From Rhizobiales bacterium UBA3584 (lineage in GTDB: Bacteria; Pseudomonadota; Alphaproteobacteria; Rhizobiales; Devosiaceae): a stretch of DNA of 32,445 bases. The stretch covers positions 1 to 32,445 of the forward strand of contig DFMV01000002.1 of the NCBI GenBank assembly GCA_002375765.1, in the 5' to 3' direction. Made by a program: the position numbers and the translations under genes. The notes below the pieces were generated by a model. The model had not been told where the DNA came from. It ran no database searches and worked only from the letters and a program-made list of their open reading frames with translations. Shown in pieces: positions 5,311 through 17,675 of the stretch. Every line of letters begins with the position of its first letter. The stretch's first letter is position 1.

Positions 5311-6489
5311 ATGCGTTCATTCGACGTCGTTGTGATCGGAGCGGGGGCCGCGGGCATGATGTGCGCCGCAACGGCCGGGCAACGCGGACGGTCGGTCCTG
5401 ATTGTCGATCACGCCGAGGCGCCGGGCAAAAAGATACGCATTTCGGGCGGTGGGCGGTGCAATTTCACCAACATCCACACGACGCCGCAGTCGTTCCTTT
5501 CGCAAAACCCCAAATTCGCCATCTCGGCTTTGAAGCGCTACCGCCCGGCCGATTTCATCGGGCTGGTCGAACGCTACTGCATCGCCTATCACGAAAAAAC
5601 GCTTGGCCAGCTCTTCTGTGACGGATCGGCCCAGCAGATCATCGACATGCTGCTCGATGAAATGAAGGCCGGCGGGGTGACACTGGAACTCGGTGTCGGC
5701 GCGGAAGCGATCGAGCGAACGGACAACGGCTACATCCTGCGGTTGCCGGACGGTCCGGTCACCTCCCCAGCACTGGTCATTGCCACGGGCGGTAAATCCA
5801 TTCCCAAGATGGGCGCCACCGGTTTTGCCTATCAGGTTGCCACCCAGTTCAACGTTCCAATCGTTACGCCGCGCCCTGGCCTTGTGCCGCTTACTTTCGA
5901 GCCGGGCATGCTCGAACGCCTGCGAGGGCTGGCCGGTGTGTCGGTGGATGCACAGGTCAGCTACGGCAAGACGGTGTTCCGTGAGGGCCTGCTGTTTACC
6001 CATCGTGGACTGAGCGGGCCGTCGATCCTGCAGATCTCGTCCTATTGGCGGGAGGGGAATCCGGTGAGCGTCGATCTCGCGCCGCAAACCGATATCGGCC
6101 AGTGGTTGGCCGATGTGCGCACGCGCAACGGCAAGCAATCAGTGCTGAACGCACTTGCCGAATTGCTGCCCCGCCGCTTGGCCGAGCTTGTGATTGCTGA
6201 AACCGGCATTGCGGGCAATCTCGCCGATCTTGGGCGCAAGGGCATGGATGCGATTATCTCCGCCGTATCGGGCTGGCGTGTCAAACCGGTTGGTACGGAA
6301 GGCTATCGCACGGCCGAAGTCACGCTCGGCGGCATCGATACCGCCGCTCTGAGCTCAAAAGACATGCAGGTCAAAGCCGTACCCGGTCTCTACTTTATCG
6401 GTGAGGCTGTAGACGTCACCGGATGGCTCGGAGGCTATAACTTCCAATGGGCCTGGGCATCGGGCAAAGCCGCCGGACTGGCAATTTAG
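5311..6489 (+). CDS. NAD(P)/FAD-dependent oxidoreductase, HI0933 (YhiN/BaiN) family
   Basis: A 392-residue flavoprotein. It opens with the FAD-binding dinucleotide fold VVVIGAGAAGMMCA (residues 6-19), then the family hallmark GKKIRISGGGRCNFTN (about 44-59). A second nucleotide motif is ALVIATGGKSIPKMGATG. It ends with GLYFIGEAVDVTGWLGGYN, the second FAD contact typical of HI0933-like proteins. Biochemical roles are poorly established for most members; some relatives reduce enone compounds, so only the cofactor can be predicted here. The start ATG has only a weak ribosome-binding site (GCAGGG). The 3' end overlaps the convergent small gene by 4 bp. Confidence 0.9.
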   Translation: MRSFDVVVIGAGAAGMMCAATAGQRGRSVLIVDHAEAPGKKIRISGGGRCNFTNIHTTPQSFLSQNPKFAISALKRYRPADFIGLVERYCIAYHEKTLGQLFCDGSAQQIIDMLLDEMKAGGVTLELGVGAEAIERTDNGYILRLPDGPVTSPALVIATGGKSIPKMGATGFAYQVATQFNVPIVTPRPGLVPLTFEPGMLERLRGLAGVSVDAQVSYGKTVFREGLLFTHRGLSGPSILQISSYWREGNPVSVDLAPQTDIGQWLADVRTRNGKQSVLNALAELLPRRLAELVIAETGIAGNLADLGRKGMDAIISAVSGWRVKPVGTEGYRTAEVTLGGIDTAALSSKDMQVKAVPGLYFIGEAVDVTGWLGGYNFQWAWASGKAAGLAI

Positions 6490-6704
6490 CCCGGACTGAG
6501 CACCGTATGGACGGTTCCCGCGACGTTGGCGAGGCGCAGATGCGCGCTCGATGGCGAGAGCTGGCTCGAGGCGAGCATGTAGCCGACCACGGCCAAGACG
6601 ATGATCGCGAACCAACCGATGATAAACCCTCGTCGGTTGTAGCCCTTGATCGGGGCCGATGACCTCGGGCGGTCAGAGGTGCGGGCAAGGCTTGGGAAAC
6701 TCAT
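6486..6704 (-). CDS. small single-pass membrane protein, unknown
   Basis: A 72-residue ORF with a basic, Ser/Arg-rich N-terminus (about 1-26) and one strong hydrophobic helix (about residues 27-46, GFIIGWFAIIVLAVVGYML). A 25-residue tail follows, presumably periplasmic if positive-inside holds. The ribosome-binding site is weak. It is convergent with the flavoprotein gene and shares 4 bp with its 3' end. I do not recognise a family. The clear transmembrane pattern in an otherwise unassigned stretch is the main reason to accept it as a gene. Confidence 0.5.
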   Translation of the reverse strand: MSFPSLARTSDRPRSSAPIKGYNRRGFIIGWFAIIVLAVVGYMLASSQLSPSSAHLRLANVAGTVHTVLSPG

Positions 6705-6902
6705 AAGTCACAAATCCGAGAGGGTGGACGTTAGCCTTGGTTATCGCTGGTCATTGTGCTGGGCCAATGGCGCAAACATGCCCAGATCAAGGCATTAGCG
6801 ACACAATCGGGCCCGGTGCGAATATGGGTGATTCAAAAGAAACGAGCGGGCGTCCAATTGTGTTCCCAAGCCCGGAATCGTTATGGATTCTTGTTCCATT
6901 GG
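6705..6902. other. intergenic region without a supported gene
   Basis: This is the left part of the roughly 320-bp gap between the small membrane protein and the PRC-barrel gene. ORFs crossing it show no coding character I can recognise and lack ribosome-binding sites. A GTTCC/GGAAC dyad (6893-6897 and 6903-6907) marks the edge of the EcfG promoter described next. Confidence 0.6.
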
Positions 6903-6927
6903 GGAACCAAGCGGGGGAGGCGACGTT
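6903..6927 (+). promoter_or_regulatory. EcfG-type promoter of the PRC-barrel gene
   Basis: GGAAC at 6903-6907, a 16-nt spacer, and CGTT at 6924-6927 match the known alphaproteobacterial EcfG (GSR sigma factor) consensus exactly. Transcription would start near 6934, about 90 nt before the ATG at 7024. A reverse copy of the -35 box (GTTCC, 6893-6897) sits 5 bp upstream, but it has no -10 partner. Confidence 0.82.
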
Positions 6928-7023
6928 CAAATCCCATGACGGCTGGAACACCGATCGGAGCATGAGTTGAGCCCCGCGGTCCCAGCCCGAGAACTTGAAA
7001 CAAGCGATTTCAGGAGAAAACTA

Positions 7024-8172
7024 ATGTATCGCAAGCTTCTTGCCTCGACCGCGCTCGCTCTGGTTGTTACCGGCGGCGCCTACGCTCAGGAAATGGCCCC
7101 GGCCGACCCGGCCATGGCCCCTGCGGACCCCGCGATGGAGGCGCCCGCAGAACCCGAAACTCCGCAGGAGCCTCTTGTTAGCGCTGCTGACACCGGCATC
7201 AATGCCGATGGCTGGCTGGCCACCGAAATCATCGGTGAAACCATCTACAATTCTACAGGTGACGATGCCGAAGCTATCGGCGACGTGAACGACTTCGTGC
7301 TTGATCAGAATGGCGAAATCGGCGCCGTCGTCGTCGGTGTGGGCGGGTTCCTTGGCATCGGCCAGAAGAGCGTCGCCATCAACTGGGCCGATCTTGAACT
7401 TGCCCAGGATATGGATGGCAACAATCGCCTGATCGCCAACATGACTCGTGAACAGCTGGAAAATGCTGCCGAGTTCGATCGTCAGGAATGGCTGGCCAGC
7501 GAGGCCGAGACAGCCGCCGAAATGGACGCTGGGGCTGGCGATGCAATGGCTCCCGCTCCTGCTGGCGACGCAATGGCACCCGCCGACCCGGCTGCGGACG
7601 CGATGGCGCTTGAGGAAGCACCGGCCGACGACGCCGCTGTGACTGAAGAGGTTGCTCCGGCCGAGGACGCTATGGCCAGCGAGGAAACAGCCCCGGCTGA
7701 CGATGCGATGGCGAGCGAGGAAACGGCGCCTGCTGATGATGCCATGGCGAGTGAAGAACCCGCTCCTGCAGAAGATGCCATGGCCAGCGAGGAAGCACCG
7801 GCTGAAGCCGACGCTGCTGCTGCCAGTGATTTCGACAGCATGGAGGCGGTCGCAACCGCAGATATTTCGGCTGACGAGCTGACGGGTACGGCAGTTTACG
7901 GTGCGGGTGACGAGGAAATCGGCTCGATTGGTGACATCCTGCTTTCGGAAGATGGCACTGTAGATGCGGTCATCATCGACTTTGGTGGTTTTCTGGGCAT
8001 CGGCACCAAGCCGGTTGCCGTGGCCTTCGATAACCTGACCTTCGTCCGCGATGAGAATGGCGGCCTGCTCTTGCGCACGCCGCTCACTGCGGAGGAGCTG
8101 GAAGCCGCTCCCGAGTATGACGAGGAAGCCTATCTTTCGGCGCCCGAGGACAACGCGCTGATCGTCGAATAG
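7024..8172 (+). CDS. exported protein with two PRC-barrel domains and Ala/Asp/Glu-rich repeats
   Basis: The ATG at 7024 follows GGAGAAAACTA and begins a clear signal peptide (basic start, ALALVV core, predicted cut after AYA near residue 21). The mature protein is acidic and has two PRC-barrel domains. One is near residues 60-130 (GVGGFLGIGQKSVAI) and one near 280-345 (DFGGFLGIGTKPVAV). A low-complexity linker joins them and holds four 12-residue repeats of the form APA(E/D)DAMASEE. PRC-barrel domains are known in photosynthetic reaction centre subunit H and RimM. In exported rhizobial stress proteins their role is not established. An EcfG promoter lies about 100 bp upstream, so it is probably induced by general stress. 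Total length is 382 residues. Confidence 0.88.
   Translation: MYRKLLASTALALVVTGGAYAQEMAPADPAMAPADPAMEAPAEPETPQEPLVSAADTGINADGWLATEIIGETIYNSTGDDAEAIGDVNDFVLDQNGEIGAVVVGVGGFLGIGQKSVAINWADLELAQDMDGNNRLIANMTREQLENAAEFDRQEWLASEAETAAEMDAGAGDAMAPAPAGDAMAPADPAADAMALEEAPADDAAVTEEVAPAEDAMASEETAPADDAMASEETAPADDAMASEEPAPAEDAMASEEAPAEADAAAASDFDSMEAVATADISADELTGTAVYGAGDEEIGSIGDILLSEDGTVDAVIIDFGGFLGIGTKPVAVAFDNLTFVRDENGGLLLRTPLTAEELEAAPEYDEEAYLSAPEDNALIVE
7654..7797 (+). repeat. four in-frame 36-bp tandem repeats in the PRC-barrel gene
   Basis: Four consecutive 12-codon units (7654, 7690, 7726, 7762) encode variants of APAEDAMASEET. Synonymous differences between the units indicate an old array rather than a recent slippage product. 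Shorter related motifs (APADPAM, APAGDAM) precede it in the mature N-terminus and linker. The array separates the two PRC-barrel domains. Confidence 0.8.
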
Positions 8173-8998: not shown

Positions 8999-9331
8999 TT
9001 AAAGAATTTTGGAAAGAACGTAGCCGATGCCGGCCGCGATCAGCACCGACGAGATCGGCTTTTCGCGGATCATCGTCTTTAGTTCGCCCTCCGCGGCCTC
9101 GAAACTGTCCTGGACCTGCTCCAGCGTTTCTTCGCCCTTGCGTTCAGCGGATTTGCGGAGCCGGCGGGCTTCGGTCTTGGCTTCACCGGTGCGGTATTTG
9201 ACGACATCGCCAAGGGTCGCGGTAATCGCGGCCACGTCTTCGCGCAGGGCTGCGATTTCAGCGTCCAGATCTTTTGCAGGATCGTCACTATCGGTCTTTG
9301 CTGTGCGGGCGGTTGTTGCGGCTCGGGCCAT
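8999..9331 (-). CDS. DUF883 (ElaB/YqjD-like) membrane-anchored protein
   Basis: The ATG at 9331 follows GGGAGG by 7 nt; a longer in-frame start at 9364 would begin at the transcription start of its promoter. The 110-residue protein has a charged, helical, coiled-coil-like body (residues 18-85, rich in Asp, Glu, Lys and Ala). It ends in a single hydrophobic C-terminal anchor (PISSVLIAAGIGYVLSKIL). This is the classic DUF883/YqjD arrangement, in which the E. coli relatives are stationary-phase inner-membrane proteins, some of them ribosome-associated. An exact EcfG promoter lies 38 bp upstream of the start, which agrees with stress induction. The holin-like gene follows. Confidence 0.85.
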   Translation of the reverse strand: MARAATTARTAKTDSDDPAKDLDAEIAALREDVAAITATLGDVVKYRTGEAKTEARRLRKSAERKGEETLEQVQDSFEAAEGELKTMIREKPISSVLIAAGIGYVLSKIL

Positions 9332-9368
9332 GATCGGCCTCCCATGTTGGAGTTGCACTCGCAACCCT

Positions 9369-9393
9369 AACGCGGGAACAAAAAAGAGGTTCC
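9369..9393 (-). promoter_or_regulatory. EcfG-type promoter of DUF883-holin operon
   Basis: Reading leftward, GGAAC (9393-9389), a 16-nt spacer and CGTT (9372-9369) match the EcfG consensus exactly. The expected transcription start is near 9363, 32 nt before the DUF883 ATG. The -35 box lies inside a stem of the ecfG terminator. Confidence 0.82.
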
Positions 9394-9440: not shown

Positions 9441-9998
9441 TCAGGCTGCGTTGGGGGAGGTGAGGTTCATTACCCCGACCGCGACGGCGTCGGGACCGAA
9501 CTCTCCATCACCCTCGAGCTTGAGAATGGTTGCCAATTGTGTGCGGGCGCGGCTGACGCGGCTTTTGATTGTGCCTACGGCGCAATCGCAGATTTCGGCA
9601 GCTTCTTCGTAGGAAAAGCCCGACGCGCCAACCAGGATCAGGGCTTCGCGCTGATCTTCGGGGAGTTGGTTCACGGCCTTTTTGAAATCTTCCATATCGA
9701 GCCGACCGACCTGTTCGGGATGGCTCGACAGCTTTTCGGCCATTGCGCCTTCTGGATCGGATACTTCGCGCTTGCGCTTGCGCATCTGGCTGTAGAACTC
9801 GTTGCGCAGAATGGTAAAGAGCCAGCCCTTGAGATTGGTGCCGGGCGTGAATGACGATCGCTTGTCCCAGGCGCGCACCAGAGTCTCCTGCACCAGATCG
9901 TCGGCCTTGTCGGCTGCGCCGACAAGCGACATGGCAAAGGCACGCAAATTGGGAATTACGGCGAGAAGTTCGGCGCGGAAATCGTATGTATCTGACAT
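9441..9998 (-). CDS. ecfG: general stress response sigma factor EcfG
   Basis: A 185-residue ECF sigma factor. Region 2 (about residues 10-80) includes DKADDLVQETLVRAWDKRSSF and the core-binding and -10-recognising helices. Region 4 (about 110-165) includes QLPEDQREALILVGASGFSYEEAAEI, which recognises the GGAAC -35 box. This sequence type, beside nepR and phyR, is the alphaproteobacterial EcfG (ECF15) class. EcfG directs RNA polymerase to stress genes when NepR is titrated by phosphorylated PhyR. It lies 9 bp after nepR and probably shares its promoter (autoregulation). Six matching promoters occur in this window. Confidence 0.95.
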   Translation of the reverse strand: MSDTYDFRAELLAVIPNLRAFAMSLVGAADKADDLVQETLVRAWDKRSSFTPGTNLKGWLFTILRNEFYSQMRKRKREVSDPEGAMAEKLSSHPEQVGRLDMEDFKKAVNQLPEDQREALILVGASGFSYEEAAEICDCAVGTIKSRVSRARTQLATILKLEGDGEFGPDAVAVGVMNLTSPNAA

Positions 9999-10007
9999 GG
10001 CCGCCTC

Positions 10008-10199
10008 CTATTCGGACTTGGGCTTGTCATCGTCTCCGAGCTTGCCAAGTAGCTCAAGCAGACGATCGGGAACCGGCTCTGCGACGACATCGTCGTAGAG
10101 TTCGCGTAGCTTGAGCCCAATGAAGGCCTGGGAATCGGCCCCCAGGCTCGGCTTGTCTTCGCCCTCACGGACCTTTTCGTCCTGATCTTCACTGGTCAT
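10008..10199 (-). CDS. nepR: anti-sigma factor NepR
   Basis: A 63-residue cytosolic anti-sigma factor that holds EcfG inactive and is captured by phosphorylated PhyR. The core FIGLKLRELYDDVVAEPVPD (residues 28-47) and RLLELLGKL match the two NepR helices. The N-terminus is charged and disordered, as in the family. I chose the ATG at 10199. The frame stays open to 10307, but that extension would read across the gene's own promoter. The ribosome-binding site is weak. The gene is first in a leftward pair with ecfG and starts about 50 nt after the predicted transcription start. Confidence 0.92.
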   Translation of the reverse strand: MTSEDQDEKVREGEDKPSLGADSQAFIGLKLRELYDDVVAEPVPDRLLELLGKLGDDDKPKSE

Positions 10200-10259
10200 G
10201 TTCTTACTGCTGAGTTGCGTCACGTTTACCCCACAAAGCGACTTCTTGTTGGCTCCGGA

Positions 10260-10284
10260 AACGCCAGGAGTCAAAAAAAGTTCC
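10260..10284 (-). promoter_or_regulatory. EcfG-type promoter of nepR-ecfG
   Basis: Leftward GGAAC (10284-10280), 16 nt including seven consecutive T, and CGTT (10263-10260) form an exact EcfG consensus match. It provides positive feedback on the sigma factor and its antagonist. Its -35 box is 8 bp from the -35 box of the divergent phyR promoter. Confidence 0.87.
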
Positions 10285-10292
10285 ATCGTTGC

Positions 10293-10317
10293 GGAACTTT
10301 TTGTCAAAGGCCCCGTT
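10293..10317 (+). promoter_or_regulatory. EcfG-type promoter of phyR
   Basis: GGAAC (10293-10297), a 16-nt spacer and CGTT (10314-10317) match the consensus. The transcription start is expected near 10324, about 54 nt before the phyR ATG. Confidence 0.87.
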
Positions 10318-10377
10318 ATCGGTCCATTGTCGCTGCTTGCGCGTCAAGCGAGACGACTATGCGAGGGAGCTATATTT

Positions 10378-11175
10378 ATGAATCTTGCTGAGTTGATTGC
10401 GCCGCACATTCCGTATCTGAGGCGTTTTGCGCGGTCGTTGACCGGTAGCCAGTCGAGCGGCGACGCCTATGTGTCGGCCACGCTAGAGGCTCTAGTTGCC
10501 GACAGGTCGATTTTTCCGTCCGACCTGGACTCAAAGGTCGCTCTTTACAAAGTCTTTTCCCAGCTCTGGAAATCGGTCGATATCAATCTTGCTGACCTGC
10601 CGCCAGCCGCTCATGCATGGGAAGAGCAGGCGCGCAGGAGCCTACGCGCAATCGCGCCCTTGCCGCGCCAGGCGTTCCTTCTGATGGCGGTCGAGCGGTT
10701 TTCAAATGCGGAAGGCGCGGAAATTCTCGGTGTGACCGAGGTTGAGTTTGCCGACCTCATCGAGACGGCTTCGACGGAAATGGCTCGCCAGGTGGCGACG
10801 ACCGTCCTCATCATTGAAGATGAACCGCTGATTGCTATGGATATCGAGCAAATGGTCGAAGCGCTGGGCCATTCGGTGACTGGCGTCGCGCGGACCCACA
10901 AGGAAGCCTTGGAGCTTTTCAATCAGCGCCGTCCCGGCCTGGTCCTTGCCGATATTCAGTTGGCCGATGGAAGCTCGGGCATTGATGCCGTCAACGATAT
11001 GCTGCGCTCGGCCAGCGTGCCGGTCATCTTCATTACGGCGTTTCCAGAACGGCTCCTGACGGGTGAACGTCCGGAACCGGCTTTCCTGGTCACCAAACCC
11101 TTCCAGCCCGACATGGTCAAAGCACTGGTCAGCCAGGTGCTGTTCTTTTCCGAACAAATGGAACAGGCGGCCTAA
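10378..11175 (+). CDS. phyR: general stress response regulator PhyR
   Basis: A 265-residue two-part protein. Residues 1 to about 125 form a sigma-factor-like domain that mimics EcfG and, after activation, binds NepR. Residues 142-260 form a receiver domain. The receiver has the acidic pair Glu147-Asp148 (IIEDEP), the phosphorylated Asp192 (LADIQLADG), Thr220 (FIT) and Lys240 (VTKPF), so it should be phosphorylatable. The ATG at 10378 follows GAGGGAG, and the upstream open frame is discarded. It is divergent from nepR-ecfG and has its own EcfG promoter, the standard arrangement for the partner-switching module. Confidence 0.96.
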   Translation: MNLAELIAPHIPYLRRFARSLTGSQSSGDAYVSATLEALVADRSIFPSDLDSKVALYKVFSQLWKSVDINLADLPPAAHAWEEQARRSLRAIAPLPRQAFLLMAVERFSNAEGAEILGVTEVEFADLIETASTEMARQVATTVLIIEDEPLIAMDIEQMVEALGHSVTGVARTHKEALELFNQRRPGLVLADIQLADGSSGIDAVNDMLRSASVPVIFITAFPERLLTGERPEPAFLVTKPFQPDMVKALVSQVLFFSEQMEQAA

Positions 11176-11183
11176 ATCGGTGA

Positions 11184-11205
11184 GGCGCCGGAACCACCCG
11201 GCGCC
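11184..11205 (+). terminator. hairpin after phyR, overlapping next promoter
   Basis: GGCGCCGG (11184-11191) and CCGGCGCC (11198-11205) form a perfect 8-bp stem with loop AACCAC, 9 bp past the phyR stop. There is no proper T run, so termination may be partial. The stem and loop contain the -35 box of the following EcfG promoter. Confidence 0.6.
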
Positions 11206-11215
11206 CCGGTTCGTT
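11190..11215 (+). promoter_or_regulatory. EcfG-type promoter of the DUF1328 gene
   Basis: GGAAC (11190-11194), a 17-nt spacer and CGTT (11212-11215) match the consensus. The expected start is near 11222, about 29 nt before the ATG at 11251. It may also drive the downstream histidine kinase gene. Confidence 0.8.
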
Positions 11216-11250
11216 CTCCCAAAAGTTCAGTATTTATGGGAGTACGGTCC

Positions 11251-11418
11251 ATGCTCGGTTGGGCACTTGCATTTCTTGTAATAGCTATCATTGCCGGCGT
11301 TCTCGGATTTGGCGGGATCGCTGGGGCAGCATCTTCGATCGCGCAGATTCTGTTCTTTGTATTTCTCATCGCAATGGTTATTGGTCTCGTCATAGGTTGG
11401 GGTCGGCGAGCACGTTAG
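11251..11418 (+). CDS. DUF1328 (YtjA-like) small membrane protein
   Basis: A 55-residue protein made of two hydrophobic helices with the family pattern [12 protein letters not shown] near the start, [10 protein letters not shown] in the turn and [10 protein letters not shown] in the second helix. I chose the ATG at 11251 because GGGAG lies 8 nt upstream and family members begin with MLGW. An in-frame ATG at 11236 lacks a ribosome-binding site. DUF1328 proteins are common, small and functionally uncharacterised. Here an EcfG promoter directly upstream links the gene to the stress response. It sits between phyR and a histidine kinase. Confidence 0.88.
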
Positions 11419-11420
11419 CC

Positions 11421-11464
11421 GCCCCGTGCCGGGGCAAAGATCGGGCCACCCGCCGGGGTGGTTT
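11421..11464 (+). promoter_or_regulatory. two tandem hairpins before the histidine kinase
   Basis: GCCCCG-TGC-CGGGGC (11421-11435) is followed by CCACCC-GCCG-GGGTGG (11446-11461) and TTTAAG. The second stem contains the likely ribosome-binding site of the kinase GTG start at 11467. These could attenuate transcription between the DUF1328 gene and the kinase gene, or limit kinase translation. Confidence 0.5.
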
Positions 11465-11466
11465 AA

Positions 11467-12513
11467 GTGGGGCTTGTGGAACACTCGGACAAACATGCAT
11501 CGTCTATGAAGGGCCAGGACAACGGAAAGTCAGGAGAGGGCACCTATGAAAGCTCTCGCCGCTTCGCGTTCGCCATGCGCGCCCTCAGTCGAACGCCGGT
11601 GTCGCTAAGTTATCAGAACCGCGATCTGCGCTATGAGTGGGCGGAAAACCTTCCCGCCGGCATCGAGTTGAACGATGTGCTGGGATATACCGATGCCGAT
11701 TTTCTGCCCCGGTTGGCCGCCGAGCGTCTGCGTGTCACCAAACTTCATGTTATCGAGACCCGGGAGCCGCAACGCTTCGAATTGCCCGTGAATATTGGCG
11801 GCGAGGTGCGCTGGTTCGACATCTGGATCGATCCCGACCTCGACCCTTCCGGCCTGGCCATGGGGGTCTATTCCACAATCATAGACGTCAGCGCCCAAAA
11901 GCGCCGCGAGGTCCAGCTCAAGAACCTGTTGCGCGAGGTCAGCCATCGCTCACGCAATCTGCTGGCGATTGTCTTGTCGCTCGCCTCCCAGACAGCCCGC
12001 AGCGCGACCAGCGTTCCCGCTTTCGTTACAGCGTTTTCCGGTCGGCTCCAGGCTATCGCCCGAGCCCAGGATCTCATTACTGATCGGGACTGGCAGGGGG
12101 CGCTGCTGAGCGATCTGATATCGCGCCAGATCGCGCTGTTTCATCGCGACAATGCGCTTCCGGTGGAGCTCAAGGGTGATGACCTGGTTGTTTCGCCCAA
12201 CGCGGCTCTCTATGTCGGCCTCGCAATTCACGAGCTTGCCTCAAATGCCGTGCGAAATGGCCAATTGTATCCGGGCGACGGCGCCATTCACGTGGCTTTC
12301 AGCGTGGAGCCGCGTTCCGATGGTGGGCGCAATCTGATTGTCAAATGGACCGAACGGCTGGGTGCCGGATCGACGGCGCACGAGGTTGAACCTCTGACCC
12401 GCAAATTTCTCGAAAGCGTGGTGCCGCTGGCTGTCGACGGGATGGGCGAGCTTGCCGTCAACGGCGGCCGCGTGGATTACGCCTTGCGTATCGACGGCAA
12501 CCACATCACCTGA
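11467..12513 (+). CDS. HWE/HisKA_2-type sensor histidine kinase with PAS-like domain
   Basis: The 348-codon frame starts with GTG at 11467. The true start may be later, since no start has an ideal ribosome-binding site. There are no membrane segments, so it is a cytosolic sensor. Residues about 40-145 look like a PAS domain ending in the usual VSAQKRREVQLKNLL linker. The phosphorylation motif is REVSHRSRNLLAIV with His160, and the N box is HELASNAVRNG (255-265). The WTE near 294 fits the HWE class. The usual glycine-rich C-terminal ATP lid is not obvious. The position next to phyR makes it a good candidate for a PhyR kinase; HWE/HisKA_2 kinases are the known PhyR activators. Confidence 0.82.
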   Translation: MGLVEHSDKHASSMKGQDNGKSGEGTYESSRRFAFAMRALSRTPVSLSYQNRDLRYEWAENLPAGIELNDVLGYTDADFLPRLAAERLRVTKLHVIETREPQRFELPVNIGGEVRWFDIWIDPDLDPSGLAMGVYSTIIDVSAQKRREVQLKNLLREVSHRSRNLLAIVLSLASQTARSATSVPAFVTAFSGRLQAIARAQDLITDRDWQGALLSDLISRQIALFHRDNALPVELKGDDLVVSPNAALYVGLAIHELASNAVRNGQLYPGDGAIHVAFSVEPRSDGGRNLIVKWTERLGAGSTAHEVEPLTRKFLESVVPLAVDGMGELAVNGGRVDYALRIDGNHIT

Positions 12514-12546
12514 TCACAAAGTCTTTTGGAAACGCGCCTCAAAACG

Positions 12547-12585
12547 AGGAAAGACCGGGAAGCCTTTTGGGCTCCCGGCCTTTCT
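12547..12585 (+). terminator. intrinsic terminator after the histidine kinase
   Basis: AAAG-A-CCGGGA-A-GCC pairs with GGC-TCCCGG-C-CTTT (stem 12550-12564 with 12570-12583), with a short T-rich loop and T-rich flank. It lies about 35 bp after the kinase stop. Confidence 0.75.
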
Positions 12586-12664
12586 GATAGCGAAAGCGCT
12601 TGGGGGAAACGCATTCGCGTTACCCATTAATGCGAGCCGCTCAAATTGGTTCCGGCGTGTGCAC

Positions 12665-12747
12665 AAAAAAAGAGGATCGCCGGGCAGCAATCCTCTTAGG
12701 GTCAGGGCTTGGCACGATGAAGGTAGGGGCGCCTCCATCGGCTTTTC
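12665..12747 (-). ncRNA. candidate EcfG-dependent small RNA (about 83 nt)
   Basis: An exact EcfG promoter (12777-12753, minus strand) predicts transcription starting near 12747. A perfect intrinsic terminator follows: AAGAGGAT (12697-12690) pairs ATCCTCTT (12677-12670), with a T run to 12665. Between them there is no ribosome-binding site. The only open frame begins about 9 nt from the start and runs through the terminator, so it is not a plausible gene. The RNA would carry an unpaired C-rich stretch (GGCGCCCCTACCTTC) of the kind that can pair with ribosome-binding sites. A stress-sigma-controlled sRNA (GsrN) is known in Caulobacter; whether this one is related cannot be judged here. Confidence 0.6.
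12666..12697 (-). terminator. intrinsic terminator of the candidate sRNA
   Basis: Leftward AAGAGGAT, a 12-nt loop, ATCCTCTT and seven T. The polarity of the T run fits only leftward transcription, yet no protein gene lies upstream on that strand. Confidence 0.85.
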
Positions 12748-12752
12748 CTAAA

Positions 12753-12777
12753 ACGCGCCGGCCCGCCGCTGGTTCCA
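12753..12777 (-). promoter_or_regulatory. EcfG-type promoter of the candidate sRNA
   Basis: Leftward GGAAC (12777-12773), a 16-nt GC-rich spacer and CGTT (12756-12753) match the EcfG consensus exactly. It points away from glgP into a region without a protein gene. Confidence 0.75.
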
Positions 12778-12901
12778 TCGACGCCCGTTATTTGTTCAAC
12801 CATGTTGAAGGCACATGGACGCCATGACGCTAAAGGTGCTGGAAAGCGGCCGGAACTCGTGCAACACTGAACTTCTCTGAGGGGAGGAACAGACATGAAC
12901 C

Positions 12902-15382
12902 ATGGGTTGCGATATGCCGCAAAAGCCAATCGTTTACGACGCCCCCACCCCTCAGCCGCGGGCCAGCGATGCTGAAACGCTTCGTAACGAAATCCTCGAA
13001 AAGCTGACCTATGCCGTCGGTAAGGATCCGATTGTCGCGCGCCGAACGGACTGGTTGACTGCGACCATTCTGACCATTCGCGACCGGATCATCGATCAGT
13101 GGATGGAATCGACGCGCGACACGTGGCGGACATCGCAAAAACGCGTCTATTATCTCAGCCTTGAATTTCTGATCGGCCGCCTGATGCGCGATGCCGTGTC
13201 CAATCTGGGCATGATGGAGCCGGTGCGTGAAGCGCTGGCCTCGTTCAATGTCGACCTTGATGAATTGATCGAACGCGAGCCCGATGCGGCTCTCGGCAAT
13301 GGCGGTCTTGGCCGTTTGGCCGCGTGTTTTCTGGAATCGATGTCCACCGTCAAGGTTCCCGCTTATGGCTATGGCATCCGCTATGTCCACGGGCTTTTCC
13401 GCCAGGAAATGAGCGATGGCTGGCAGGTGGAATTGCCCGAGGACTGGCTTGCGCACGGCAATCCATGGGAATTCGAGCGGCGCGAAAGTGCCTATGAGAT
13501 CGGGTTTGGCGGCTCTGTCGAACCGGTCACCCAGCCTGACGGCAGCGTGCGGCAGGTCTGGCATCCGGCCGAGCATCTCAACGCCGTGGCCTTCGATACG
13601 CCGGTGGTGGGTTGGCGCGGCGCGCGGGTGAATACTCTGCGCCTGTGGAGCGCCCAGCCGATCGATCCGCTGCTGCTCGACCGCTTCAACTCGGGCGATC
13701 ATATCGGCGCGCTGGAGGAAAGCGCGAAGGCGGTTTCCATCACGCGGGTGCTCTATCCCGCCGATTCGACGCCCGCCGGTCAGGAATTGCGGCTGCGGCA
13801 GGAGTTCTTCTTTTCCTCGGCCTCGCTGCAGGACATTGTGCGCCGCCATCTGCAGCAATATGGTGATCTGGGCTCGCTCCCCGACAAGGTGGCCATCCAG
13901 CTCAACGACACCCATCCGGCGATTTCGATTGCCGAGATGATGCGTATCCTGATGGACGTGCAGGGACTGGCCTGGAACGAAGCGTGGAAGTTGACCAAGG
14001 CCATCTTCTCTTACACCAACCACACATTGTTGCCCGAGGCGCTGGAAACCTGGCCCGTGGCGCTGCTCGAGCGGCTGTTGCCGCGCCAGATGCAGATTGC
14101 CTACGCGATCAACGCCATGGTGCTCGAGGAAGCGCGCGAAAAGGGGCTCGACGACTCCCGGATCGCGGCGATCTCGCTGATTGACGAAAACGGCGGGCGT
14201 CGGCTGCGCATGGGGCAATTGGCATTCGTCGGGTCCCATTCCATCAACGGCGTTTCCGCGCTTCATACCGAATTGATGAAGCAGACGGTGTTTGCCGATC
14301 TGCACAAACTCTATCCCGAGCGCATCAATAACAAGACCAATGGCGTCACGCCACGCCGCTGGCTGATGCAGTGCAATCCTGCACTGACCAAGCTGATTTC
14401 CGAGCGTATCGGGCCCGAATTCCGGGATAATATCGAGCAATTGATCAAGCTCGATGTGCATGCCGAGGACAAATCGTTCCAGGATCAGTTCGCCGCCGTC
14501 AAACGCGGCAACAAGGAACGGCTTGCGGCGCTCATCAAGGAGCGGGCGGGCGTTACGGTTTCGCCCGACGCGCTGTTTGATATCCAGATCAAGCGCATTC
14601 ATGAATACAAGCGCCAGCTGCTCAACATCATGGAAGCAGTAGCGCAGTACATCATGATCCGCGCCCATCCCGAAAAGCGCTGGGTGCCGCGGGTCAAGGT
14701 GTTCGCGGGCAAGGCGGCGCCGAGTTACTGGAACGCCAAGCTCATCATCAAGCTCATCAACGACGTTGCCAAGGTCATCAACAACGACCCGGCGGTGCGG
14801 GGGCTTTTGAAGGTGGTGTTCCTGCCCAATTACAACGTGTCGCTGGCGGAAACGATTATTCCGGCTGCCGATCTGTCCGAGCAGATTTCGACTGCCGGCA
14901 TGGAAGCGTCGGGGACCGGGAACATGAAGTTCGCGCTCAACGGGGCGTTGACCATCGGGACGATGGATGGCGCGAATGTCGAGATGCGTGAGCGGTTAGG
15001 CCCTGAAAACATTGTGATTTTCGGGATGACGGCTGATGAGGTCGATGACGTTCGGGCTCAGAACCGTTCGCCGCGCGAGACGATCGAGGCGAGCCAGTCG
15101 CTGCGTGAAGTGATCGAGGCCATCGGGTCGGGCGTGTTTTCCCCGGACGACCGGGCACGCTATCGCGGCCTGATGGACGGGCTTTACGATCATGACTGGT
15201 TCATGGTGGCGCGCGACTTCGACGCGTACTGCGCGGCCCAGCGCAAGGTCGATACTTTCTGGAATGACCGCAAGGTCTGGAATGCCATGGCGATCCGCAA
15301 TACGGCGCGAATGGCCTGGTTTTCCTCGGATCGCACGATCCGCGAATATGCCGATGACATCTGGGGAGCACCGCACATCTGA
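12902..15382 (+). CDS. glgP: glycogen phosphorylase
   Basis: An 826-residue GT35 enzyme that releases glucose-1-phosphate from glycogen ends using pyridoxal phosphate (PLP). Visible landmarks: ALGNGGLGRLAACFLES near 125-141, the substrate and phosphate regions NDTHPAISIAEMMR and KRIHEYKRQLLN, and the PLP lysine in EASGTGNMKFALNGALTIG. The length equals the usual bacterial size. The ATG at 12902 is 14 nt from GGGGAGG, which is rather far. An out-of-frame ATG at 12895 has the better spacing, and ATG 12914 is another in-frame choice. First gene of the glycogen cluster; no promoter could be assigned. Confidence 0.96.
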   Translation: MGCDMPQKPIVYDAPTPQPRASDAETLRNEILEKLTYAVGKDPIVARRTDWLTATILTIRDRIIDQWMESTRDTWRTSQKRVYYLSLEFLIGRLMRDAVSNLGMMEPVREALASFNVDLDELIEREPDAALGNGGLGRLAACFLESMSTVKVPAYGYGIRYVHGLFRQEMSDGWQVELPEDWLAHGNPWEFERRESAYEIGFGGSVEPVTQPDGSVRQVWHPAEHLNAVAFDTPVVGWRGARVNTLRLWSAQPIDPLLLDRFNSGDHIGALEESAKAVSITRVLYPADSTPAGQELRLRQEFFFSSASLQDIVRRHLQQYGDLGSLPDKVAIQLNDTHPAISIAEMMRILMDVQGLAWNEAWKLTKAIFSYTNHTLLPEALETWPVALLERLLPRQMQIAYAINAMVLEEAREKGLDDSRIAAISLIDENGGRRLRMGQLAFVGSHSINGVSALHTELMKQTVFADLHKLYPERINNKTNGVTPRRWLMQCNPALTKLISERIGPEFRDNIEQLIKLDVHAEDKSFQDQFAAVKRGNKERLAALIKERAGVTVSPDALFDIQIKRIHEYKRQLLNIMEAVAQYIMIRAHPEKRWVPRVKVFAGKAAPSYWNAKLIIKLINDVAKVINNDPAVRGLLKVVFLPNYNVSLAETIIPAADLSEQISTAGMEASGTGNMKFALNGALTIGTMDGANVEMRERLGPENIVIFGMTADEVDDVRAQNRSPRETIEASQSLREVIEAIGSGVFSPDDRARYRGLMDGLYDHDWFMVARDFDAYCAAQRKVDTFWNDRKVWNAMAIRNTARMAWFSSDRTIREYADDIWGAPHI

Positions 15383-15473
15383 CGATTTGACTGCGGGACG
15401 CCGGAACTGGGGGGTCCCCGGCGGGTTCATTACAAGAGGCTGATGCGTTGACATCAGAGGGGGAGTAGAACAC

Positions 15474-17675
15474 TTGGCGAAAAAGCAGTCCGACTGGCAG
15501 GCCGATCCCAAACAGATCGCGCGCGTGGTGAACGGCCAGCACGATGATCCGTTCGCGATCCTGGGGCTACATGAGAGTGACGGCCAATGGATCGCCCGTG
15601 CACTCGTGCCCCACGCCCAATGGACCGAGGTGCGCACGCTCGACGGCAAGTCCTTGGGAAAGCTCGAAAAAAGGGACGATGCGGGATTTTTCGAAGGCCG
15701 TGTGGCCATAGACCGTTTTCAGCCCGTAATCTACCACGCCGGCAATGAAGGGGGAGAGTGGGACGTCGTCGATCCCTATTCCTTCGGCCCGGTGCTTGGC
15801 CCGATGGACGATTATTACATCGGCGAAGGATCCCATCTGCGCCTGTTCGACAAGATGGGCGCCCATTTCATGACATTCGAGGGGGTGGAGGGCACCCATT
15901 TTGCCGTCTGGGCGCCAAACGCGCAGCGGGTTTCGGTGGTGGGCTCGTTCAACGATTGGGACGGGCGGCGCCATGTCATGCGGCTGCGCAAAGAAATCGG
16001 GATCTGGGAGATATTCCTGCCCGGTGTTCAGCCCGGCGCTCAATACAAATACGAAATCATCGGCAAGGCGGGAAACCTGCTGCCGCTCAAGGCCGACCCC
16101 TACGCGCAGCAATCGGAATTGCGGCCCAGGACGGCCTCGGTGGTTGCCGATCCGACGCCCTTTGCCTGGACCGACGACGCTTACATGGAAGCGCGCAAAT
16201 CGCGCGATTACCGCCGCGAGCCGATGAGCGTTTACGAGGTTCATCTTGGCTCCTGGCGCAAGCGGCCCGATGGCGGGTTCCTGAGCTATGACCAGCTTGC
16301 CGAGCAATTGGTGCCCTATGCCGCCGATATGGGATTTACCCACATCGAATTGCTGCCGATCACCGAGCATCCCTACGACCCGAGCTGGGGGTATCAGCCG
16401 ACGGGGCTTTACGCGCCCACCGCGCGGTTCGGCGACCCGGCGGGATTTGCCCGGTTCGTCGATGCGGCGCACAATGCCGGGTTGGGGATCATTCTCGATT
16501 GGGTGCCCGCGCACTTTCCCACCGATGAGCATGGACTGGCCAATTTCGACGGCACGGCGCTCTATGAGCATGCCGATCCGCGTCAGGGCTATCACCCGGA
16601 CTGGAACACGGCGATCTACAATTTCGGGCGCAAGGAAGTCTCGAGCTTTCTCACCAACAATGCGCTCTACTGGCTGGAAAAATTCCACATCGACGGGCTG
16701 CGCGTCGATGCGGTCGCATCGATGCTCTATCTCGATTATTCGCGCCAGCCGGGCCAATGGGTGCCCAACAAGCATGGCGGCAACGAGAACATCGAAGCCA
16801 TAGCCTTTCTCCAGCGCGTCAATGCCGAAACCTACGGCCAGCACCCGGGCACCTTTACCGCCGCCGAGGAATCGACGAGCTGGCCGGGAGTAACCGCGCC
16901 GACCTACGCCAAGGGGCTGGGGTTCGGGTTCAAGTGGAACATGGGGTTCATGAACGACACGCTGCGCTACATGCAGCGCGAGCCGATCCATCGCCGCTTC
17001 CACCACCACGATCTGAGCTTCGGGCTGCTCTACGCGTTTTCGGAGAATTTTACCCTGCCCCTCAGCCATGACGAGGTGGTGCATGGCAAGGGATCGCTGC
17101 TTGCCAAGATGCCGGGCGACGACTGGCAGAAGTTCGCCAACCTGCGCGCTTACTACGCCTTCATGTGGGGCTATCCAGGCAAGAAGCTGTTGTTCATGGG
17201 CCAGGAATTCGCCCAGCGCGAGGAGTGGAACGAGGCTCAGGCGCTCGATTGGTGGCTGCTGGACGCGCCATCGCATGAGGGGGTGCGGCGTCTCGTGTCC
17301 GATCTCAACACCGTCTATCGCGAACTGCCGGCGCTGCACGGGCGCGATTGCGAGCCCGAGGGGTTCGAGTGGATCATCGCCAACGATCACGCCAACTCGG
17401 TGCTCGCCTGGGTGCGCAAGGCGCCCGACGCCGCTCCTGTGGTGGTCATCACAAATCTGACACCGGTTCCGCGCGAAAAATACCGCCTGCCGATGCCCGC
17501 GGCGGGGCGCTGGATCGAGCGCATCAACACCGATGCGGGTTGGTACGCGGGTTCCAATACGGGCAATCAAGGTGTGGTCAATGCAACCGAAGGAAACGAG
17601 TTCGGTTATCCGGCAACCGCAGAGATCGTTCTGCCGCCGCTATCGACCCTCATCCTGCAATTTGAACTGGGATAG
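15474..17675 (+). CDS. glgB: 1,4-alpha-glucan branching enzyme
   Basis: A 733-residue GH13 enzyme that makes alpha-1,6 branches in glycogen. It starts with TTG at 15474, preceded by AGGGGGAG at a good distance; no ATG fits. The N-terminal N1 module (about 15-110) precedes a CBM48 module (about 120-210, FAVWAPNAQRVSVVGSFNDW). The GH13 catalytic barrel follows, with nucleophile Asp in GLRVDAVASML, acid Glu in TAAEESTSWPG and the transition-state Asp in LSHDEVVHGKGSL. Both the length and the N1 module match the E. coli-like long form. It lies 91 bp after glgP. Confidence 0.97.
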   Translation: MAKKQSDWQADPKQIARVVNGQHDDPFAILGLHESDGQWIARALVPHAQWTEVRTLDGKSLGKLEKRDDAGFFEGRVAIDRFQPVIYHAGNEGGEWDVVDPYSFGPVLGPMDDYYIGEGSHLRLFDKMGAHFMTFEGVEGTHFAVWAPNAQRVSVVGSFNDWDGRRHVMRLRKEIGIWEIFLPGVQPGAQYKYEIIGKAGNLLPLKADPYAQQSELRPRTASVVADPTPFAWTDDAYMEARKSRDYRREPMSVYEVHLGSWRKRPDGGFLSYDQLAEQLVPYAADMGFTHIELLPITEHPYDPSWGYQPTGLYAPTARFGDPAGFARFVDAAHNAGLGIILDWVPAHFPTDEHGLANFDGTALYEHADPRQGYHPDWNTAIYNFGRKEVSSFLTNNALYWLEKFHIDGLRVDAVASMLYLDYSRQPGQWVPNKHGGNENIEAIAFLQRVNAETYGQHPGTFTAAEESTSWPGVTAPTYAKGLGFGFKWNMGFMNDTLRYMQREPIHRRFHHHDLSFGLLYAFSENFTLPLSHDEVVHGKGSLLAKMPGDDWQKFANLRAYYAFMWGYPGKKLLFMGQEFAQREEWNEAQALDWWLLDAPSHEGVRRLVSDLNTVYRELPALHGRDCEPEGFEWIIANDHANSVLAWVRKAPDAAPVVVITNLTPVPREKYRLPMPAAGRWIERINTDAGWYAGSNTGNQGVVNATEGNEFGYPATAEIVLPPLSTLILQFELG

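Follow-up and report, generated by a model that had tools for sequence, protein, structure and literature searches.

Between the gene of a general stress response (GSR) kinase and glgP, the minus strand of a Devosiaceae genome carries an EcfG-type promoter followed closely by an intrinsic terminator, and the question is what this arrangement encodes. The earlier note on this DNA had proposed one EcfG-driven small RNA at the junction. We uphold that candidate, here called sRNA1, and find that a second, tandem element had been overlooked, so that probably two RNAs lie here. The explanation that we favor, and consider likely, is a tandem pair of EcfG-driven trans-acting sRNAs on the minus strand, which would add a post-transcriptional branch to the GSR. 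It builds on promoter boxes, hairpins, a terminator, conservation, covariation, strand, presence in the genus and location at the GSR locus, all of which can be read in the sequence; from these we infer transcription, EcfG dependence and a base-pairing mechanism for both sRNAs.

A stress response locus with a cluster of EcfG-type sites

The window, i.e., the whole stretch of 32,445 nt that was analysed, is the GSR regulatory locus known from Alphaproteobacteria. The genome is one of Pelagibacterium: among named records, its kinase gene comes closest to that of a Pelagibacterium MAG (92% identity), followed by that of Pelagibacterium lacus (72%); Devosiaceae is the family that contains Pelagibacterium. 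The GSR sigma factor gene ecfG lies at 9441..9998 on the minus strand (NF009199, 295 bits), next to the anti-sigma factor gene nepR (10008..10199, minus; PF18557). The nepR ORF spans 10008-10307, and we place the start of the gene downstream of the ORF start because an EcfG-type promoter (10284-10260) falls within the ORF. On the plus strand follow phyR, encoding the anti-anti-sigma response regulator (10381..11175, with a start presumed to lie inside ORF 10198-11175) behind its own EcfG-type promoter (10293-10317), a gene for a 60-aa DUF1328 protein (11236..11418), also with an EcfG-type promoter (11190-11215), and the gene of an HWE-family PAS histidine kinase (11467..12513). The first glg gene, glgP for glycogen phosphorylase (12902..15382, plus), opens the series glgP, glgB, glgC, glgA, pgm and glgX. 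The proposed sRNA pair sits on the minus strand in the gap from the kinase gene to glgP, sRNA1 being located ~1.5 kb past phyR in this genome, beyond the DUF1328 and kinase genes.

Exact GGAAC-N16/17-CGTT sites occur seven times in the window, at 6841 (minus), 6903 (plus), 9369 (minus), 10260 (minus, nepR-ecfG), 10293 (plus, phyR), 11190 (plus, DUF1328) and 12752 (minus, sRNA1). These are 7 of the 71 motifs in the genome, against an expectation of 0.58 (Poisson P = 2.7e-6). Genome-wide, the motif is not enriched (71 sites vs 90 for the reversed control), and the evidence therefore lies in the clustering and conservation of the motif rather than in the match itself. Similarly, a plain terminator scan of positions 10000-16000 yields barely more than shuffled sequence (9 vs 6.6). 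The combination of both signals is more telling: the window contains one EcfG motif with a strong terminator within ~120 nt, and no such combination arose in 150 dinucleotide shuffles of the window, which held on average 0.67 EcfG motifs each. The promoter-terminator observation at sRNA1 is thus confirmed as lying beyond chance.

Some of the remaining sites deserve a brief description. Those at 6841-6866 (minus) and 6903-6927 (plus) form a divergent exact pair, of which one faces the gene of a PRC-barrel protein (6967-8172, PF05239) and the other perhaps a 72-aa ORF (6486-6704, minus) with one hydrophobic stretch, as judged by eye. The site at 9369-9393 (minus) precedes a 121-aa ORF (8999-9364) downstream of ecfG, a relative of which is present at the locus in 10 of the 11 fetched genus loci. 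We take this ORF to be DUF883/YqjD-like; its NCBIfam match is weak and below the cut-off, and Pfam gives no match.

Promoter, fold and conservation of sRNA1

The promoter of sRNA1, P1, has the exact form GGAAC-N16-CGTT, as had been claimed, and lies at 12752..12776 on the minus strand, one base off the 12777-12753 of the earlier note. From it, sRNA1 would be transcribed as an RNA of ~83 nt (12663..12746, minus), an extent given by the match of model R1, which includes this sequence, with the 5' end estimated from promoter spacing. Hairpin 1 (12715..12740) is predicted to have a 9-bp stem, CGAUGGAGG/CCUUCAUCG, that closes the C-rich loop CGCCCCUA. The C-rich stretch is thus present, and the description of it as single-stranded needs adjusting, as it is mainly a hairpin loop. 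An unpaired linker (12698..12714) with the invariant segments GCC and AAGCCCU comes next; its strand CCAAGCCCU is invariant and might serve as a second pairing site. The intrinsic terminator (12665..12697) begins ~54 nt past the end of P1, in line with the gap of about 55 nt noted before, and consists of an 11-12-bp stem (12697-12670) and seven T (12671-12665). The stem had been described as a perfect one of 8 bp; it is longer, with 12 pairs counted, 5 of them G-C, around a loop of 4. The seven T are there, two of them pairing with A's.

BLASTN with 421 bases around sRNA1 matched all 12 genus genomes searched and none of 49 others. The match includes sRNA1 in 11 of the 12; in G005 it covers the glgP side only, and sRNA1 was read from the adjoining sequence. 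In G010, the main match is sRNA1 alone (79 bases at 96%). The -35 box of P1 is identical to our own in 11/11 relatives, the spacer measures 16 or 17, and the -10 box reads CGTT in 10 of 12 genomes, with TGTT and CATT once each. Mean identity to our sequence across the 11 relatives follows the same layout: 100% in the -35 box, 49% in the spacer, 84% in the -10 box (two low values stem from rows with a spacer of 17), 90% in hairpin 1, 83% in the linker and 87% in the terminator, compared with 61% in the glgP-side flank and 27% in the kinase-side tail. Conservation of both promoter and terminator in related genomes, which had been suggested as a check, is thus found in 12/12 aligned genus genomes, and the model described below recovers sRNA1 in 5/5 genomes held out from it.

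Neither the CCCCUA of the loop nor the GCC and AAGCCCU of the linker vary in any of the 12 rows of alignment A1, two of which (G009 and G011) are identical. The stems do vary, yet they keep pairing (96.8% of cells). Both sides of a pair have changed in 11 cells, compared with 3.4 in shuffles, none of 500 of which reached as high a count, and sliding the partner strand by 1-3 columns lowers the pairing to 37-64%. Further pair types are no more numerous than in shuffles (15 vs 14.6). In row G005, 3 of the 9 fixed-column pairs of hairpin 1 are lost, though the fold predicted for this sequence by itself retains the hairpin with a bulge, the stem around the C run being largely rebuilt. Invariant unpaired segments held in a covarying frame are what would be expected of a base-pairing RNA.

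Model R1 matches 13/13 genus genomes and R2, the model for the second element, 12/13; of the matched genomes, 12 and 11, respectively, had served to build the models, and the one left (G157) is of the same species. As these matches are mostly by construction, we built model R3 for a held-out test from six close relatives (alignment A3, 97% mean column identity). R3 recovers sRNA1 in all five held-out divergent genus genomes with E-values from 4.5e-16 to 5.1e-9, and its best E on 20 other-genus loci is 0.13. The conservation of promoter and terminator, the held-out model and the GSR locus make an EcfG-driven sRNA the best reading of this stretch, as originally proposed, with control of sRNA1 by EcfG predicted from its promoter.

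A second element behind sRNA1, its range and possible targets

Just beyond the T run of sRNA1 starts another EcfG-type promoter, P2 (GGAAC-N16-CATT; 12629..12653, minus). It is followed by a putative sRNA2 of ~75-80 nt (12545..12622, minus; 5' end estimated), for which R2, based on alignment A2 with our own sequence included, matches 12547-12622. Its hairpin 1 (12589..12617) has the form GCGUUU-CCCCC-AAGCGC within an outer stem, with CCCCC at 12606-12602, and is succeeded by a terminator-like hairpin (12548..12585) with a weak T tract, which probably also serves the kinase gene on the plus strand. By coordinates, the -35 box and the C run lie 47 nt apart in sRNA1 as well as in sRNA2 of our sequence. 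For sRNA2, this distance is 46-48 nt in 10 of 11 rows; in the exception, L003, the script took a nearer GGAAC, though P2 is present. These features indicate that a second EcfG-driven sRNA probably lies right behind sRNA1.

Covariation in sRNA2 amounts to 18 cells changed on both sides, compared with 8.0 in shuffles (0/500 as high). We give it less weight than that of sRNA1, since a slide by -1 yields 19 of them, at much reduced pairing (56% vs 89%), and since the A2 rows were picked by a pattern holding the CCCCC core, which also makes the invariance of CCCCC partly a matter of construction. R3 weakly matches sRNA2 in two loci (L125:6403-6478, E 0.04; L126:6370-6461, E 0.059), a faint hint at a common origin of the two RNAs by tandem duplication.

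Outside the genus, R1 found nothing better than E 0.055 in 123 other genomes of the family, its matches amounting to 6 places in 4 genomes (E 0.055-0.69). In a sample of 397 genomes of the order, which takes in some family genomes, it hit the 7 genus genomes and, at E ~0.007, two other genomes, where the matches are plain terminators. Model searches over more than 40 genomes ran with stricter filters, at which weak matches are lost. None of the out-of-genus R1 matches qualifies as sRNA1, as none has a correctly oriented EcfG-type site upstream; in one (L153), such a site lies on the other strand. Of 136 family genomes, 103 have an R2 match at E <= 1; 12 of these are genuine (the match in G010, at 0.19, lies elsewhere), the wide spread being due to the generic terminator half of the model. 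Out-of-genus R2 matches were rejected as sRNA2, with no upstream EcfG-type site in the 18 family loci and 6/6 order loci inspected. As far as the family and the order sample were searched, sRNA1 thus appears to be genus-specific.

The slot itself is not empty elsewhere. Among the 20 other-genus loci, five (L113, L115-L118) show an EcfG-type site on the minus strand past the kinase gene. In L115-L118, which represent three other genera, this site is accompanied by a csbD-like gene in place of the sRNAs, convergent with the kinase gene (called by Pfam for L115 and L118, by eye for L116 and L117). In L113, the site lies on the minus strand from 7506 (phyR-forward coordinates) and is followed by ~200 nt in which several strong hairpins are predicted but no clear product was identified; this stretch is possibly an unrelated GSR RNA.

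Loop-complement and leader searches returned no conserved target for either sRNA. The exact complement of the sRNA1 loop, GGTAGGGGCG, has 8 sites in the genome, one being the sRNA gene, against 35 for the reversed control. As targets these sites were discarded, as none falls in the leader of a likely gene judging by eye from the ORFs; the site in L134 is followed after 47 nt by the start of a 90-codon frame that is itself contained in a longer one. For the sRNA2 loop, the exact complement TTGGGGGAAA occurs at 10 places, compared with 2 for the reversed control; one of the 10 is the sRNA2 gene and another covers the leader of an OmdA/YdeI-like gene. The latter was rejected as a conserved target, given that the exact site occurs in 2 of 9 genus genomes, our own and one of the same species. 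Of the other leaders in this set (11 matches in the 9 genomes, 2 weaker paralogues dropped), 3 have a G4 form and 4 have nothing at that place; one of these four, G006, offers another G4 stretch of equal predicted energy.

The leaders of seven locus genes (6-12 genomes each, after dropping rows in which the BLAST match began away from residue 1) show no consistent gain over shuffled leaders. Those of ecfG and glgP come closest. For the ecfG leader, a median fraction of 0.08 of shuffles pairs as well with the sRNA1 loop and likewise with the sRNA2 loop (values <= 0.05 in 2/7 and 1/7 genomes, respectively), and for the glgP leader with the sRNA2 loop the median is 0.13 (2/11 genomes <= 0.05). 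The peroxidase family PF00141 (KatG) was not found in our genome and was found in only 2 of 13 genus genomes, from which it follows that the targets must mostly differ from those of GsrN.

Competing readings and known systems

The strongest competitor to a tandem pair, which we regard as rather unlikely, takes only sRNA1 as a gene and sees in the second element the bidirectional terminator of the kinase gene, together with a site resembling EcfG promoters and a conserved hairpin that has some other role. The -10 box of P2 is CATT in 7 of the 11 element-bearing genomes, as in our sequence, and CGTT in 4, whereas the Pelagibacterium nepR-ecfG site has CGTT in 11/11 relatives. Nevertheless, P2 boxes are present in every one of these 11 genomes, and CATT is a credible -10 in this family because the site between ecfG and phyR carries it in 16 of 20 other-genus loci. 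The weak T tract and the absence of the element from one of the 12 aligned genomes (G010) agree with the single-gene reading, as does the abundance of similar hairpins in the family; the regular spacing between -35 and C run does not. A mere terminator is also disfavored by G002, which keeps both RNAs at a locus lacking the kinase gene. Finally, G-U pairs in sRNA2 favor the minus strand by 29 to 6, those in its terminator-like hairpin by 21 to 5. As to G002 itself (L125), the HWE kinase gene is missing between the DUF1328 gene and glgP, with phyR, ecfG and nepR retained, and another kinase may feed the GSR there.

The same strand signal bears on the idea of a plus-strand structured leader or attenuator of glgP, a gene upstream of which the region does lie. 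G-U pairs favor the minus strand in sRNA1 as well (19 vs 1; 48 vs 7 for both RNAs), the T run and EcfG boxes face minus, the flank nearer to glgP is less conserved, and between the kinase gene and glgP there is no glgP-facing EcfG-type site in our genome (strict motif) or in 11 relatives; we consider a glgP leader the least probable of all readings. Scarcely more probable is an EcfG-driven small stress protein translated from the ATG at 12738-12736. This codon is kept in 12/12 genomes, AGGA stands shortly 5' of it, contrary to the earlier statement that a ribosome-binding site is lacking, and the csbD-like genes of L115-L118 show that the slot can hold an EcfG-type site with a protein gene. 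However, the ATG sits inside a paired stem, which can account for its conservation, and no reading frame is conserved across the 12 genomes. Frames from this ATG range from 13 to 251 codons, and the SD-like motif is flagged in just 4/12 genomes. That no ORF ends before the terminator holds in our sequence, the exception among the 12 being a 13-codon frame in G006 (L122). A protein product from the sRNA1 stretch is thus unlikely on these sequence grounds. Somewhat less improbable, and still unlikely, is a true ortholog of Caulobacter GsrN that has moved and diverged while retaining the same kind of targets. The shared sigma class, the similar neighborhood and the C-rich 5' loop (PMC5869019) would fit this idea; it is opposed by the lack of an Rfam family at gathering score, by the samples of the family and the order, which yielded no believable copy beyond the genus, and by the peroxidase family being found in so few of the genus genomes.

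We therefore prefer a tandem pair of EcfG-driven sRNAs, and picture its action as follows. In the PhyR-NepR-EcfG cascade, stress releases EcfG (PMC5830050): stress would activate PhyR, upon which NepR would let go of EcfG. RNA polymerase with EcfG would then transcribe sRNA1 from P1 and sRNA2 from P2, each RNA terminating at its own hairpin. By analogy with GsrN, the C-rich loops (CGCCCCUA and CCCCC), together with the CCAAGCCCU strand of sRNA1, would bind G-rich segments of mRNA leaders, most probably those around ribosome-binding sites, and thereby change how a set of messages is translated or how stable these messages are. A more specific version, to which we give roughly even chances, is a genus-specific, katG-independent GSR output module of two sRNAs of the same design (a C run at a distance of 47 nt from the -35 box, with a terminator hairpin behind it), perhaps the product of an old tandem duplication, whose loops would divide the mRNA targets between them. 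Its slot would be the one taken by the EcfG-driven csbD-like gene in three other genera of the family.

Several known systems resemble this arrangement in part. At gathering score, Rfam finds no family in the window, AbcR/alpha-r15 included; matches to Pxr (E 2.8) and a Brucella sRNA (E 2.4) are at chance level, far below cut-offs. In the literature searched, we found no paper on small RNA and the general stress response in Devosia, no related titles on Pelagibacterium sRNA, and, in titles and starts of abstracts, no tandem sRNA pair at a GSR locus. The candidates sRNA1 and sRNA2 would hence be RNA families outside Rfam but of a known kind, with the doubled layout as the fresh point. In Sinorhizobium meliloti, 23 sRNAs have RpoE2 promoter motifs, with array support in eight intergenic regions (PMC3616915). 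They have GSR-sigma promoters in common with our candidates; the relevant part of that paper describes no pair at the GSR locus. AbcR1/AbcR2 (alpha-r15) of rhizobia are likewise tandem and trans-acting, with exposed anti-Shine-Dalgarno motifs, but differ in their locus (SMc01226-lsrB) and in having CU-rich motifs instead of C runs (PMC7143759).

The closest counterpart is GsrN, which uses a C-rich 5' loop to pair with a G-tract in the leader of katG (PMC5869019). GsrN-like sRNAs have been predicted in other Caulobacteraceae, Rhizobium, Sinorhizobium, Agrobacterium, Brucella, Rhodopseudomonas and Bradyrhizobium and proposed as a common part of the alphaproteobacterial stress response; outside Caulobacteraceae, this proposal draws on position, promoters and some published transcriptomes (PMC5869019). 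With these RNAs, the Pelagibacterium candidates have in common an EcfG-class promoter and an exposed C-rich loop in the 5' part, and, like the GsrN-like sRNAs, with C. crescentus GsrN as the exception, they lie beside ecfG, nepR and phyR (PMC5869019). In our case, the near-consensus promoter directly upstream is seen from motif and conservation, the proximity to ecfG-nepR-phyR from the map, and the loop from predicted fold and covariation. The analogy with GsrN drawn in the earlier note thus stands in kind, by promoter, neighborhood and loop, and fails at its known target: activation of katG through the 5' loop, the mark of an ortholog, has no counterpart in a genome in which PF00141 was not found. 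The other difference is that Pelagibacterium probably has two tandem RNAs. The list of GsrN-like sRNAs in section 14 of PMC5869019 names no Devosiaceae, and for this family the present case adds covariation, strand and genus-wide conservation to the proposal. It offers probably two RNAs rather than one, in genomes mostly devoid of the gene family of GsrN's known target, and Pelagibacterium thereby makes testable why a C-rich loop is kept when katG is missing.
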